A stretch of 29,949 nt of DNA from a virus. The position numbers and the translations under genes are program-made. The stretch lies in the IMG/VR virus record IMGVR_UViG_3300024520_000358, positions 1 to 29,949 of that record. The stretch is one strand, 5' to 3'. The notes under the pieces were generated by a model, which made no database searches, was not told the origin of the DNA, and was given only the letters and a program-made list of their open reading frames with translations. Positions 19,569 to 28,841 of this stretch are shown here, piece after piece (the stretch's first letter is position 1; every line of letters starts with the position of its first letter).

Positions 19569-20031
19569 CGTCCAAACCACCCTTAATCAAACGCAACGAA
19601 GCAACTTCCTCTTCCAACAACGAAGCCAACTCATCATCACTAAAAGACTGAGCGTCCCGCTCATCCTCCATAACCACCTTACGGCGAGGAGTAAACTTCT
19701 CAATATACTGCAAATACAACGAAGCAGCCTTCACATCACCATTAGCAGCCTGCTGCCAAAGAGCATCAATGACGCTCTGAACCCTTTCAGGGTTGATGTT
19801 CAGTTCCGCTGCACGACGATCCCACTCACGAACAAAACGGGGGTCACGTTTGATACGTCGGATTGAGTCCTGATGGATGGCGTGCTCGCCAGCCCATTCC
19901 TTTTGGGTGCGAGGGGACCTCTCAGGTCCACGAAGCAACCACTCCAGTAATAACTTCCAGTTCTCGGGCATGACTCGCTGATGAGAGTCCTCATCCCAAG
20001 CCCATCCTCGTCCTCCACCGTTCTGTGGCAT
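19561..20031 (-). CDS. terS: Small terminase subunit (156 aa)
   Basis: ATG at 20031 is chosen because GAGGAG lies 7 nt upstream; a longer reading to 20136 would cover the regulatory inverted repeat. The 156-aa protein has an N-terminal helix-turn-helix-like part, 'RTQKEWAGEHAIHQDSIRRI', and 'KRDPRFVREWDRRAAELNIN', then 'VQSVIDALWQQAANGDVKAA' and 'SLYLQYIEKFTPRRKVVMED', which matches the pattern of phage small terminases (DNA-binding helices, oligomerisation core, 'A..YL...K..P' end). It recognises phage DNA and loads the large terminase. It is the first gene of the leftward operon. Confidence 0.82.
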   Translation of the reverse strand: MPQNGGGRGWAWDEDSHQRVMPENWKLLLEWLLRGPERSPRTQKEWAGEHAIHQDSIRRIKRDPRFVREWDRRAAELNINPERVQSVIDALWQQAANGDVKAASLYLQYIEKFTPRRKVVMEDERDAQSFSDDELASLLEEEVASLRLIKGGLDDA

Positions 20032-20087
20032 GTATGCGCTCCTCTGTTGTGTGTCAATACCATAGGGTAGATGTCCCAAACAGGCAC

Positions 20088-20116
20088 CTGTAACTGATAT
20101 TACAGTACTGTTACAG
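20088..20116. promoter_or_regulatory. Inverted repeat CTGTAAC-N15-GTTACAG
   Basis: The 7-nt arms at 20088-20094 and 20110-20116 are perfect complements, and the spacer contains further TTACAG and ACTGTTAC overlaps. It lies about 57 nt upstream of the small terminase start and 40 nt upstream of the rightward -10 box. An operator for the leftward transcript is the likely reading. Confidence 0.5.
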
Positions 20117-20131
20117 AACAGCCCACACAGG

Positions 20132-20223
20132 TTCAAAAGCGGGACACAAAACCTCTATACTGAGTAATTACTCAGTACCAATCTCCTCACCCCCCAGGGG
20201 AGGAGATTGATACTCAGTACCAA
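20132..20223 (+). promoter_or_regulatory. Early rightward promoter with palindromic operator and leader hairpin (copy 1)
   Basis: A TATACT -10 box lies at 20156-20161, with a weak TTCAAA -35 18 nt upstream. It overlaps the perfect 18-nt palindrome ACTGAGTAATTACTCAGT (20159-20176), placed at the expected start site. A hairpin with 10-bp stem (CAATCTCCTC paired with GAGGAGATTG, 20179-20209) follows, and then the 15-mer GATACTCAGTACCAA (20209-20223), which repeats the operator half-site. The same order of elements recurs at 27241-27304. Confidence 0.65.
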
Positions 20224-20321
20224 TACCAAGCACTTTGGCGCATACAGGCGACAAAGGAGCCAAGTTCCAAAAACCAAACGCACTGTAAATGGATATCTAT
20301 ACATATGCATGTGCGCGGGGG

Positions 20322-20369
20322 CCACCCCCCGAAGGGGGGTGGGGTCGGGTCACCGAACTGTGTTCGGTG
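20322..20369 (+). other. Two adjacent G/C-rich leader hairpins
   Basis: The first stem is CCACCCCCC, loop GAA, GGGGGGTGG (20322-20342). The second is CACCGAA, loop CTGTG, TTCGGTG (20351-20369). Neither is followed by a U-run. They lie in the presumed early leader RNA and could act as a roadblock, terminator or protein site. Confidence 0.6.
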
Positions 20370-20382
20370 GTCGGCTGCTGCA

Positions 20383-20425
20383 CTTAGTACTCTGTACTAA
20401 GTAATTCTCAGTACTTTGTACTGAG
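20383..20425 (+). promoter_or_regulatory. Two AGTAC-type palindromes in tandem
   Basis: CTTAGTAC-TCT-GTACTAAG (20383-20401) and CTCAGTAC-TTT-GTACTGAG (20407-20425) are perfect inverted repeats with 3-nt spacers. The junction between them (20394-20414) is a near copy of the promoter operator ACTGAGTAATTACTCAGT. They therefore look like extra binding sites of the same regulator, or hairpins in the leader. Confidence 0.6.
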
Positions 20426-20563
20426 TTTCGCCCAGGATTTACTCCGTAAATTGAGGAAGCTGTCGGCAAATGGCGGACCGCTGGACCTACGGTCCAACCC
20501 TTCGGTTTGTTGGTGGTTGGTGCTGTTGGGGTTCTGAAAGTAGCTTGGTTCTCTTTGAAAGAG

Positions 20564-20598
20564 GTTTCTCTCCCCCCTCTTTTGGAGGGGAGAGAAAC
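20564..20598 (+). repeat. Intergenic hairpin 1
   Basis: The stem is GTTTCTCTCCCC paired with GGGGAGAGAAAC around a short loop. The 35-nt sequence is identical to the copy at 21701-21735. It precedes the SD of the 48-aa gene by 16 nt. Confidence 0.8.
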
Positions 20599-20623
20599 CC
20601 CCAAACCGAAATTTGGAGGCAAG

Positions 20624-20770
20624 ATGTCGGAGAAGTTCTGGTATTTCGTTGAAGGGATTCATCATCGTTTCGTCTGTCGGAATGATGTTTATGTTCCTCA
20701 TTGTGATGAGGAAAGTTGTGATTATGGTTTCTGGGTTGATCCTGAGGAGAATCCTTGGAGGTTCATTTAG
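20624..20770 (+). CDS. First early gene: small Cys/Trp-rich protein (48 aa)
   Basis: ATG at 20624 has GGAGG 5 nt upstream. The 48-aa acidic aromatic protein starts 'MSEKFWYFVEGIHHRFVCRN' and contains 'CRNDVYVPHCDEESCDYGFW', with three cysteines and nearby His residues that may bind zinc. It ends 'DPEENPWRFI'. The family is not recognised. As the first gene after the early promoter it should be made immediately on infection, so a host-takeover role is possible, but this is only inference from position. Confidence 0.65.
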   Translation: MSEKFWYFVEGIHHRFVCRNDVYVPHCDEESCDYGFWVDPEENPWRFI

Positions 20771-20793
20771 AAGAGCTTGAATCACTAGAAAGA

Positions 20794-20828
20794 GTTTGTT
20801 TCCCCCTCTTGTTTGAGGGGAAACAAAC
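20794..20828 (+). repeat. Intergenic hairpin 2
   Basis: GTTTGTTTCCCC pairs with GGGGAAACAAAC. The inner sequence CTC..TTGTTT..GA resembles the other intergenic hairpins, but the lower stem is different in sequence and still fully paired. Confidence 0.8.
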
Positions 20829-20841
20829 CCCAAATTGAAAT

Positions 20842-20857
20842 TCGACTGGGAGGTCGA
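20842..20857 (+). promoter_or_regulatory. SD-in-loop hairpin, 60-aa gene
   Basis: TCGAC (20842-20846) pairs with GTCGA (20853-20857); the loop TGGGAG holds the Shine-Dalgarno core. The ATG follows 4 nt later. One of a family of nine such elements. Confidence 0.7.
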
Positions 20858-20861
20858 TTGG

Positions 20862-21044
20862 ATGATGAAATCATTTGAGTTTGAAGCTGTTTATGTTGAG
20901 TCTGAAAGGGATCTTGTCTTGAATCCTCAAGATATTTTGGTTCCTGAGTTTAAAGTCAGAATGACTTTGACTGAGGATCAGATCGAAGATCTGTTGTTGA
21001 AGTTGCTGCCGAAGTTGGAACCTAAGTCGGCAAGTCTTTATTGA
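20862..21044 (+). CDS. Small acidic early protein (60 aa)
   Basis: The ATGATG at 20862 follows the SD hairpin. The 60-aa acidic protein has an N-terminal beta-prone half 'SFEFEAVYVESERDLVLNPQ' and a C-terminal helix 'LTEDQIEDLLLKLLPKLEPK'. Such a two-part shape could form a small dimer, but no family is recognised. It lies between intergenic hairpins 2 and 3, forming one hairpin-SD hairpin-gene cassette. Confidence 0.65.
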   Translation: MMKSFEFEAVYVESERDLVLNPQDILVPEFKVRMTLTEDQIEDLLLKLLPKLEPKSASLY

Positions 21045-21050
21045 AATGGT

Positions 21051-21100
21051 TTGAGGTTGTTCTCTCCTCCTCTCTTTTGAGAGGAGAGAACAACTCTCAA
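21051..21100 (+). repeat. Intergenic hairpin 3
   Basis: A 14-bp stem (GTTGTTCTCTCCTC with GAGGAGAGAACAAC, 21056-21094) is extended by TTGAG/CTCAA outside. It has the same layout as the other intergenic hairpins but another stem sequence. Confidence 0.8.
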
Positions 21101-23427: not shown

Positions 23428-23478
23428 GTTGGGTGTTTCTCTCCCCCTCTAGTTTGAGGGGAGAGAAACCCCCACAAC
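23428..23478 (+). repeat. Intergenic hairpin 7
   Basis: GTTGGG...CCCACAAC frames the stem GTTTCTCTCCCC/GGGGAGAGAAAC. It is almost the same as hairpins 1 and 5, with a different loop (CTCTAGTTTGA). Confidence 0.8.
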
Positions 23479-24773: not shown

Positions 24774-25142
24774 ATGTGGGTATTCAATGAGGACGGTTTC
24801 TTTTCGACCGTCGTAGATAGAGATGATCCAACGGTGTTGGCTGTGCGTAGTCGTGACGAAATGTCGATAGCTCGCTTTTGTCGGCATGTGGGCATAGATC
24901 CCCATGTGGAAGCTGTGTTTACACCTGAACGGGATTACCAGGTTCGGGTTCGTGTTCCGAAGGCCGTTTGGGTTGGGTACATGGCAAGCAAAGCTGACGG
25001 ACTGGATTATGTGGACTACAAGTCACACATGACCGAACGTATGCACGCTGGTGGCTTTCAGTTCAAGCAACTCAAAACGCTAAGTGCGATTTGGGCCATC
25101 ATGGTGGACCACTGGGAAGTCCGAAGCATGGACGATCGGTAA
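24774..25142 (+). CDS. Conserved hypothetical protein, 'MW-F-x-x-G-F-S' type (122 aa)
   Basis: The protein begins 'MWVFNEDGFFSTVVDRDDPT' followed by 'VLAVRSRDEMSIARFC', and later 'YQVRVRVPKAVWVGYMASKA', 'DGLDYVDYKSHMTE' and a helical end. I recognise this layout from small uncharacterised proteins in actinobacteria and their phages (N-terminal beta part, then a DY..FK motif). The SD TAGGAGG is 7 nt upstream, partly in a weaker AACC/GGTT stem. The TAA overlaps the ATG of the endolysin-like gene by one base, so the two are translationally coupled. Confidence 0.75.
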   Translation: MWVFNEDGFFSTVVDRDDPTVLAVRSRDEMSIARFCRHVGIDPHVEAVFTPERDYQVRVRVPKAVWVGYMASKADGLDYVDYKSHMTERMHAGGFQFKQLKTLSAIWAIMVDHWEVRSMDDR

Positions 25143-27217: not shown

Positions 27218-27304
27218 TTGCGCGCGAGACAGGTGTTCGCTATACTCAGTAATTACTCAGTGCCCCCCAATCATGGAAGGTGATTGGGGGATACTCAGTA
27301 CCAA
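27218..27304 (+). promoter_or_regulatory. Second early promoter with operator and leader hairpin (copy 2)
   Basis: TTGCGC (-35, 27218-27223), 17-nt spacer, TATACT (-10, 27241-27246). The sequence from 27241 to 27261 matches copy 1 at 20156-20176 with one difference (C for G at position 7). Then a 10-bp hairpin CCCCCAATCA/TGATTGGGGG (27264-27290) of unrelated sequence, and the same 15-mer GATACTCAGTACCAA (27290-27304) plus an extra ACTCAGTG. It drives the replication module starting at 27338. Confidence 0.75.
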
Positions 27305-27337
27305 CTCAGTGTCACACCCTCCTGAGAAACTAGATGT

Positions 27338-28138
27338 ATGAAGAAATATCCACTACACAGAGACAGCGACGGACGATGGGTCCACGATTGGGTTCGCCAA
27401 TCGTCCATCAAGACCGCCGATATGTGCTTAGAAAGATTCCGAAACACTATCTTTGGACTTGTAAGCGAAGAAACAAAAGACGCCGCCACACTGGGTACTG
27501 CCTGTCACGCAGTCGCAGAGGACGCTCTCAACACCCGCATAGGGGGAGGAGAGATGACTGAGCAAGACATGGTTGACGCATTTGAGATGCACTGGGAGGA
27601 GCTACTCCCCACCATAGAGGTGTGGAACAGTTATTCAGGTGAGAGCGCTTACGCAGCGGGGCTACGCAAGATCGAGTCGTGGCGCACCGAAGTTCTGCCT
27701 GGCCTAAAGCCAGTAGCAGTCGAAGAATATTTCAATTTACCTTTCCATGAAGATGACAGCAGGGTCGTCAACTTCTCAGGGACGATTGACCTAGTAGAAG
27801 AGGACAGGCTGTGGGACTGGAAGTTCCCTGGCCGTGACTACAGCAGGGAGAAATGGCAGTACGAAAGATGGGATGTTCAGTCAATGGCCTACTGCTGGGC
27901 AAAAGACATTTCTAATTTCTCTTATGCGATCATGCACCCTAAAGGGGTTGGTCGCATGGATATAGTTCGAGACAAAAACCATAGTGAATGGTTACGTCAA
28001 AAGGTCTTGGGGTTATGCCGCATCGTGGAACAGCAGGTGGGAACGTACCCGCTTGGTGACGATGGTTGGTGGTGCTCCGAGAAATGGTGCCCAGCGTGGG
28101 CACGGTGCAAAGGCGCAACAATAGGAGGCGCAAACTGA
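27338..28138 (+). CDS. PD-(D/E)XK exonuclease, RecB/Cas4-like, with likely Fe-S cluster (266 aa)
   Basis: Motifs run in family order: 'TLGTACHAVAE' (H57), 'VNFSGTIDLVEE' (D151), 'LWDWKFPG' (D160, K162) and 'QSMAYCWA' (Q181, Y185). Cysteines C30, C246, C251 and C257 ('WWCSEKWCPAWARCKG') have the one-plus-three arrangement that binds a 4Fe-4S cluster in AddB/Cas4-type nucleases. The enzyme should trim DNA ends, probably for phage recombination or replication. It is first in the operon behind the second promoter. The start at 27338 has only a weak SD; the 27334 ATG is in another frame. Confidence 0.82.
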   Translation: MKKYPLHRDSDGRWVHDWVRQSSIKTADMCLERFRNTIFGLVSEETKDAATLGTACHAVAEDALNTRIGGGEMTEQDMVDAFEMHWEELLPTIEVWNSYSGESAYAAGLRKIESWRTEVLPGLKPVAVEEYFNLPFHEDDSRVVNFSGTIDLVEEDRLWDWKFPGRDYSREKWQYERWDVQSMAYCWAKDISNFSYAIMHPKGVGRMDIVRDKNHSEWLRQKVLGLCRIVEQQVGTYPLGDDGWWCSEKWCPAWARCKGATIGGAN

Positions 28139-28139
28139 T

Positions 28140-28841
28140 ATGGCATGGAAACCAATGGAACCGCATGAGCGGGAGAGTATAGAAGCCCAAGTGATCCTGA
28201 AAGGTGCTGTCGAGTTGACAGCAGCGCAGGTAACAATGAACACCACAGATCCTAACGAGGATATTTTGACGACGTTGACGGATAATGCCGCAGCGCTGAC
28301 GAACATCCTTACGGATGTCAAAACCCAATTAGGATCACTTGCTCCAGTAGCAGCAGCGGTACAGCTAGAAGCTCAAGCTGTAGCGAAAGTGAATCAGGCA
28401 TTCACAGGGGGGGATCGTAAGCAGAGCTTGTACCTAGATGATGATGACTACGACGGAGTGCACAAAATATTTATGGCTGAGAAGAATGCTGGTGTTGTGT
28501 ATGCGTCCAAAGATTCTGCGTTTATGGATAACCAGGCAATCCGTAAGCTCTTTCAAACAGGGGTTCGTCAGTTTCCTGGCGACTATTGGGCAGATTCGAT
28601 GCGAGGTAAAGACATTCCGCAAACCAAAACAGGAAAATGTGGACTAGGTGACTTCAAACTAAAGAAAGGATTGTCTGTCGGTGAAGATGGGCAAGCCTTT
28701 GTTGGTCAAGGCGACGGTAACCATCCTCTTGCAAGTAAGAGTGGTTACTTCGCTGGACTACAGAAGAACACCCCGTGGTCGTGGCCTGAGCGTCCTGAGC
28801 CAGTGGACCCGCAGGGTTGGCTAGCTGGGATTAGTGGCTGA
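28140..28841 (+). CDS. Hypothetical protein in the recombination module (233 aa)
   Basis: ATG at 28140 lies one base after the TGA of the exonuclease. The 233-aa protein has a helical N-terminus ('EVLKGAVELTAAQV'-like, residues 15-35), then a long Ala/Leu-rich segment 'NAAALTNILTDVKTQLGSLA', a loop 'GDRKQSLYLDDDDYDGVHKI', and a Gly/Asp-rich C-terminal half ending 'EPVDPQGWLAGISG'. No family is recognised. Location between an exonuclease and a RecA-like ATPase suggests a single-strand annealing or ssDNA-binding role, but nothing in the sequence proves this. Confidence 0.65.
   Translation: MAWKPMEPHERESIEAQVILKGAVELTAAQVTMNTTDPNEDILTTLTDNAAALTNILTDVKTQLGSLAPVAAAVQLEAQAVAKVNQAFTGGDRKQSLYLDDDDYDGVHKIFMAEKNAGVVYASKDSAFMDNQAIRKLFQTGVRQFPGDYWADSMRGKDIPQTKTGKCGLGDFKLKKGLSVGEDGQAFVGQGDGNHPLASKSGYFAGLQKNTPWSWPERPEPVDPQGWLAGISG

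Follow-up and report, generated by a model that had tools for sequence, protein, structure and literature searches.

The stretch of DNA analysed here (hereafter the window) is a virus record of 29,949 bases from a tailed phage. Its late genes (terminase, portal, capsid) lie on the - strand and extend to about 20035, and its early and replication genes begin on the + strand at about 20600, where Pfam and PHROG scans assigned DUF932, HNH endonucleases, an exonuclease and a helicase. Comparison of positions 19900-20900 with named phages gave no near DNA match, and the protein relatives among named phages were distant (669 records for a terminase fragment, all below 60% identity, and one record for the helicase). 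One terminase relative in the genome collection comes from a contig assigned to the MAG with the label Acidimicrobiaceae bacterium TMED189; this hints weakly at an actinobacterial host, since contigs of MAGs may be misbinned. The phage group is presumably marine, judged by this MAG label and by metagenome numbers. Rfam gave no match in the window at gathering score, the intergenic stretch matching only far below it, and a tRNA scan of the window returned none. The region between the late and the early genes contains the following features:

20072-20077, - strand: TGTCCC (GGGACA on the - strand), probable element of a divergent late promoter, from the sequence and from YGTCCC in relatives
20141-20146, + strand: GGGACA, conserved promoter element 9 nt before TATACT, from the sequence and from GGGACR in relatives
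20156-20161, + strand: TATACT, probable -10 box of an early promoter, from the sequence, consensus scoring and conservation
20158-20177, no strand: perfect palindrome of 20 bp, two 9-bp sites 11 bp apart, spanning the -10 box and the expected start
20179-20209, + strand: hairpin of the first element, from fold prediction and covariation in relatives
20211-20219, no strand: third 9-bp site, TACTCAGTA, a direct repeat of the second site
20294-20305, + strand: TATCTATACATA, followed by a G/C-rich inverted repeat at 20323-20341, common to the other lineages read
20381-20427, no strand: two small hairpins with site-like arms, ACTTAGTAC/GTACTAAGT and CTCAGTAC/GTACTGAG

The first element (E1, 20141-20223) occupies this divergent region. 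The halves of its palindrome, TACTGAGTA (20158-20166) and TACTCAGTA (20169-20177), are mutually inverted, and the palindrome is best read as two inverted 9-bp sites, TACTNAGTA, 11 bp apart. The hairpin that follows has a perfect outer stem of 10 bp, which is extended in the predicted RNA fold (-28.6 kcal/mol, z -6.8). A first-pass annotation of this DNA had described a TATACT box overlapping a perfect palindrome of 18 nt (ACTGAGTAATTACTCAGT, 20159-20176), followed by a hairpin and a repeat half-site. All of these were found again, the palindrome being longer than claimed and the half-site, our third site, lying within GATACTCAGTACCAA (20209-20223). The annotation's view that a two-fold symmetric site stands at the expected start was strengthened by the conserved promoter, the third half-site, a second full element and the lineage-matched sites; the second element (27241-27311), the hairpin covariation and the lineage-specific pairing had escaped it. 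The site-like arms of the two small hairpins at 20381-20427 are possible further sites. In the lineages of the family that were read, TATCTATACATA and its C/G-rich inverted repeat (20294-20341 in the window) adjoin terS. Perfect or near-perfect hairpins were also observed before several small early genes, near ribosome-binding sites (20563-20599, about 20797-20832, 21053-21090 and 23433-23472); their arms differ and their style is alike.

In order to assess how far the palindrome departs from chance, shuffled sequences were compared. A palindrome of at least 20 bp appeared in 3 of 200 dinucleotide shuffles of the whole window and in 3 of 5000 when the intergenic stretch was shuffled, and one of at least 18 bp in 19 of 200 and 10 of 5000, respectively. 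Because shuffles also yield such palindromes, the palindrome by itself is only fairly unusual in 30 kb. Its recurrence is stronger evidence than its length: the 18-mer, allowing up to three mismatches, occurs twice in the window against 0.02 occurrences expected, and the second occurrence belongs to a full element at 27241-27311. The predicted early promoter at E1 matches the consensus at 9 of 12 positions. Consensus-type promoter sites in the window number 6 against a shuffle mean of 10.6, that is, they are no commoner than chance. The E1 promoter by itself is weak evidence, and its support comes from conservation in relatives.

The second copy of the whole element (E2, 27241-27311, or 27226-27311 with its upstream motif) lies before the exonuclease gene and heads an operon of exonuclease, helicase, primase and RusA:

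27226-27231, + strand: GAGACA, resembling GGGACA, 9 nt before the second TATACT, from the sequence
27241-27246, + strand: TATACT, probable -10 box of a second promoter, from the sequence and from TANNCT in relatives
27243-27262, no strand: second copy of the composite site, TACTCAGTA and TACTCAGTG 11 bp apart, from the 18-mer and composite-site searches
27264-27290, + strand: hairpin of the second element, unlike the E1 hairpin in sequence, from fold prediction
27292-27311, no strand: two more sites after the hairpin, TACTCAGTA (27292-27300) and AACTCAGTG (27303-27311)
27338-28138, + strand: exonuclease gene (PHROG exonuclease)

Reading by eye showed a very short frame, with SHP following its start, at about 27309-27341 of the window and upstream of the exonuclease in L241 and L254. 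In several relatives this frame overlaps the start codon of the exonuclease gene; it may reflect a TGTCNCACCC DNA motif only.

Relatives were gathered by a terminase search (80 loci kept of 486 relatives), an exonuclease search (80 loci kept of 125 relatives) and a search with a conserved downstream motif (at least 120 stretches). Matches to this motif stood at no fewer than 154 places on either strand, or at least 116 once near-identical and short ones were dropped. In the divergent regions of the relatives the order of parts is the same: GGGACA, then a -10-like box, a hairpin with sites before and after it, TATCTATACATA and finally a G/C-rich hairpin. Among 81 non-redundant divergent regions, 68 carry GGGACR on the + side, 73 carry YGTCCC and 66 carry both; TAT begins 8 or 9 nt after the GGGACA element in 29 of the 68 regions that bear it. 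For E2, 27 non-redundant exonuclease-upstream regions were taken from 84 with at least 55% identity to the protein of the window. A hairpin of at least 8 pairs was found in 23 of them (no hairpin under this strict rule in the other 4), sites on both sides in 18 and a TANNCT box at the first site in 16. In many relatives the last E2 site immediately precedes the exonuclease ribosome-binding site.

Comparison of 18 chosen E1 hairpins revealed that 99.5% of 198 cells were paired, with 67 changed on both sides and no one-sided changes, whereas sliding the partner by 1-3 columns left 43-51% paired; this set was hand-picked and trimmed to 11 pairs, which favours pairing. A less selected count, which also takes the best axis, gave 292 Watson-Crick, 7 G-U and 15 mismatched cells for 26 E1 hairpins and 267, 20 and 11, respectively, for 24 E2 hairpins. 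The structure of the hairpin has therefore been kept while its sequence was free to change, and few G-U pairs occur in E1. The sites flanking the hairpin are direct repeats, the centre base being the same in 37 of 39 distinct hairpins, different and non-complementary in 2 and complementary in none. Their start-to-start distance ranges from 32 to 44, and they are therefore not fixed to one helical phase. In the predicted folds of both E1 and E2 the flanking sites pair around a central mismatch. Most E1 loops are rich in pyrimidines, and 16 of 17 have A as their last base. Among close relatives (L261, L267, L294-L308) the E2 loops read TTTA or TAAA, which are reverse complements, as if the loop had been flipped; the E1 loops, unlike these, keep a single orientation.

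The sequence of the sites differs between lineages. ATCNGAT was found in L143, CATGNCATG in G017 and L164, CTAGG repeats in L116, ACTAGTAC in G021, TATACAGTATAAC in G022 and a TTGTATCC-like motif in G019 and L094. When E1 and E2 of one genome were compared in 12 lineage representatives, the shared 7-mers summed to 268 against a permuted mean of 99.7, and none of 20,000 permutations of the pairing reached 268. G006, which belongs to the already represented window lineage, was left out; its inclusion gave an observed sum of 292 and a mean of 110.2, again with 0 of 20,000. The own E2 ranked first in 7 of the 12 lineages, the others being G016, G018, G020, L094 and G015. For G005 and G020, in which GGGAC was not found, the E1 stretch was chosen by a fallback rule; this gave a wrong place for G005, which stands outside the 12 representatives, and G020 is among them. 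The composite 20-bp site (at most 2 mismatches) was found 16 times in 410,625 bases of 14 window-lineage records, always at E1, at E2 or in the leader after E1, against none in 303,492 bases of 8 records of other lineages. In some genomes the site is inverted in E2 relative to E1 (ATCAGAT/ATCTGAT in L143, CATGACATG/CATGTCATG in G017 and GGTACTGAGTAAA/TTTACTCAGTACC in G007), and such inverted reuse suits recognition of double-stranded DNA better than recognition of an RNA sequence. E2 of G002 is placed farther upstream. The G012 genome carries five composite sites in the leader between E1 and the first early gene (L208:8580-8870), in the counterpart of positions 20381-20427 of the window, each centred in a longer inverted repeat whose arms have a sequence of their own. 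A search of all viral contigs for the composite site returned 53 stretches. Leaving aside 15 loci already known, 11 of 38 new loci encode proteins of the phage family; the remaining 27 gave no family protein match, many of them lying in A/T-rich sequence. Outside the phage family, therefore, the composite site has no diagnostic value by itself. A search for the ATCAGAT arrangement returned 29 stretches. Directly visible in the DNA are the two elements and their conservation, the covarying hairpins and the lineage-matched sites.

Candidates for a protein that reads these sites were sought among the phage genes. Pfam scans of ten small early proteins in the window detected no DNA-binding family, and the first-pass statement that no repressor gene is seen in the window agrees with the Pfam and PHROG scans of the + strand genes and with the HTH_3, HTH_31 and RHH_1 searches. 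That annotation had further proposed a search of the full genome for a helix-turn-helix gene. In 9 records of the window lineage no match was obtained to HTH_3, to RHH_1 or to the HTH family of other lineages, and none to HTH_31 over cut-off. Across 17 records, which may be incomplete, HTH_3 (at E 0.5), RHH_1 and ParA were found in none, HTH_31 in none over cut-off and an integrase in one (G020), the window being without it. On visual inspection, the divergent region of G020 (L222) also seems to contain a tRNA-like gene.

Sister lineages do encode a small HTH protein, detected by profile in 5 of the 17 records and in none of the 9 window-lineage records. In L143, L094, L216, L225 and L226 its gene stands ahead of E2 within the early operon, and the protein is also present in L108, L112, L129, L169, L175, L221 and L230, several of which are pieces of the same records. 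In its structural model (pLDDT 73) the HTH matches sigma region 4 and ArdK, the latter over 35 residues at 1.1 A (Foldseek probability 1.00, E 0.23); no Foldseek match to the model reached E 0.001 or better, and Pfam KORA matched the L094 protein at E 0.09, below cut-off. The model thus faintly resembles the KorA/ArdK plasmid repressors in fold. The last part of the early operon, which extends past the window, encodes a sigma-region-4-like protein (L195:6658-7038). Of 19 other records or loci compared, it was detected in 14; the five that lack it are the window, three B-lineage loci and L193, all of them partial. The HTH stretch around PKT of this protein is nearly constant in the members listed, and the protein may read the common GGGACA. 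TerS was considered as a reader of the lineage-specific sites and rejected, its HTH stretch differing very little between lineages A, B and C, which use different sites. A 122-residue protein (24774-25142), which none of the compared records carries outside the window lineage and G021, was likewise set aside: its model (pLDDT 88.1) gave no PDB fold match at E 0.001 or better. A 233-residue protein at 28140 is also lineage-restricted.

Taken together, we consider it moderately probable that E1 and E2 are two co-regulated promoter-leader elements and that a single lineage-specific DNA-binding factor, probably a repressor, recognises the operators at their start sites. In each element the -10 box of a promoter would extend into an operator composed of the 9-bp sites TACTNAGTA; at E1 this operator would be a 20-bp dyad centred on the expected +1. 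Transcripts are expected to start at about 20168 (E1) and about 27253 (E2). The operator would be followed by a hairpin near the 5' end of the transcript and then by one or two more sites. The factor, which would be encoded by each phage and less likely by the host, would cover the -10 box and start of both promoters, sit again after the hairpin, and repress or time the early and replication operons jointly. The lineages would have switched the site sequence at both elements simultaneously, as repressor-operator pairs do. The lineage-matched sites lead to the reading of one protein per phage serving both elements; promoter activity, binding, repression and a single reader are all inferred. The hairpin is most likely a 5' leader stem, which is the weakest step. 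A transient early-gene repressor of the KorA/ArdK sort is more likely as the factor than a lysogeny repressor. Against this explanation, the searches of 9 records of the window's own lineage returned no reader, the own E2 was not the best match in 5 of 12 lineages, E2 of G002 lies apart from the usual place, and promoter consensus matches in the window were not above chance. Moreover, the hairpin-flanking sites are always direct repeats, which a simple symmetric repressor does not require, and the HTH evidence is weak both by sequence (Pfam below cut-offs) and by fold.

Several observations could also be explained if E1 and E2 were replication initiation sites, at which an initiator binds lineage-specific, iteron-like sites and the hairpin serves as a single-strand initiation or priming signal for the phage helicase and primase. 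Such a role is compatible with an E1 hairpin almost without G-U pairs (7, beside 292 Watson-Crick and 15 mismatched cells), as in a DNA inverted repeat, with the lack of one-sided changes in the chosen hairpin set, with the position of E1 at a GC-skew switch and of E2 at the head of the replication operon, and with the array of five composite sites in G012. We nevertheless regard it as unlikely: the two elements are 7 kb apart and each overlaps a conserved -10-like box, the last E2 site often stands just before the exonuclease ribosome-binding site, the skew switch coincides with the switch in coding direction, and no initiator gene was identified. The same rarity of G-U pairs in E1 tells against an account at the level of RNA, in which the palindromic sites pair and lengthen the hairpin into a 5' leader that is read by a protein or an RNA and controls mRNA stability or translation. 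The predicted pairing of the flanking sites around a central mismatch in both elements, the very strong hairpin covariation (99.5% of 198 cells paired, 67 changed on both sides), the mostly pyrimidine-rich E1 loops that end in A and the frequent position of E2 just before a Shine-Dalgarno sequence would all fit such a leader. However, the inversion of sites between E1 and E2 in some genomes changes the RNA sequence, and the first site overlaps the -10 box and would not be wholly transcribed, which makes this account improbable as well.

An operator for lysogeny or superinfection immunity of a temperate phage, the setting that the first-pass annotation had suggested for repression of the early promoter, is very unlikely. 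The lineage-specific, matched sites do resemble the operators of heteroimmune Cluster A mycobacteriophages as described in PMC6550527, and the palindromic putative operator overlapping the predicted early promoter is a feature of CI-type systems; but the HTH_3-type repressor gene and the partition genes of such systems were not found in the 17 records, which may be incomplete (HTH_3, RHH_1 and ParA 0 of 17, integrase 1 of 17), and each genome has two or few site clusters, not 20-30 dispersed ones. What is supported in the earlier proposal are the traces expected of a DNA-binding regulator at the early promoter; the temperate setting is not. Finally, the matching sites within a genome might reflect common ancestry, not a common reader, if E2 were a recent copy of E1 in each lineage. 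This is extremely unlikely, as only the sites match between the E1 and the E2 of a genome, their hairpins, spacers and promoters being different.

The preferred reading of E1 and E2 as co-regulated promoter-leader elements can be carried a step further, to a proposal that we hold to be tentative and rather unlikely as a whole: this large family of uncultured, apparently non-integrating and presumably marine phages would attain immunity-like specificity by just two operator-hairpin-operator elements whose sites are replaced at both together, the inverted repeat would be active itself (in strand initiation or as a cruciform), and one lineage-specific factor, in the window lineage a protein of no known DNA-binding family, would gate early transcription and replication. 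Control by operator and repressor is known; the putative operator-hairpin-operator build, with its wholesale switching of sites between lineages, is unusual. No description of these paired elements was found in the open-access literature, which is limited evidence, most subscription papers lying outside its scope. With the matched pair, regulatory specificity can be approached from sequence alone in a widespread phage group that has no cultured hosts, and so can the wholesale swapping of operator specificity between lineages. The sites could be used as affinity bait for a DNA-binding protein not yet known, and a reader, if found, would show how integrase-less phages diversify repressor specificity.

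In the middle promoters of phage T4, the -10 box is preceded at a short distance by a phage-specific MotA box, which takes the place of a -35 box. The GGGACA element, which stands 7-9 nt before TATANT, is similar in position; its sequence is different, and its candidate reader is the sigma-region-4-like protein. Repeated sequences with inverted repeats are also known from Cluster K mycobacteriophages, where PMC3203893 describes start-associated sequences (SAS) of 13 bp, GGGATAGGAGCCC, in 11-19 copies at start codons, and extended forms (ESAS) with inverted repeats of variable spacer near the translation starts of a subset of genes. The hairpins before the small early genes of the window are placed like ESAS, whereas E1 and E2 differ from SAS and ESAS in sequence, number and place, being two promoter-linked elements. 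According to PMC6550527, the temperate Cluster A mycobacteriophages carry 20-30 dispersed asymmetric sites, one of them at the early promoter, with a consensus that differs between groups and is matched to the repressor. Several sites per genome and group-specific, matched sequences are common to these operators and stoperators and to the phages studied here. Unlike the asymmetric sites of Cluster A, which have one orientation, the sites here are palindromic and lie in two, sometimes three, hairpin-bearing clusters, and most records are without a lysogeny gene that could be found. KorA and ArdK are small HTH repressors that shut several early plasmid promoters together, KorA binding an inverted repeat at the -10 box and ArdK direct repeats and also inverted ones (PMC9723621). 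Similarly, E1 and E2 of the window carry a repeat-type putative operator at the -10 box of the predicted promoters. In contrast to the plasmid systems, the phage sites flank a hairpin and vary between lineages, and no such gene was found in the lineage of the window. Membership in either system goes beyond the present evidence, and by analogy the element may be described as one that works like the KorA/ArdK and Cluster A systems.
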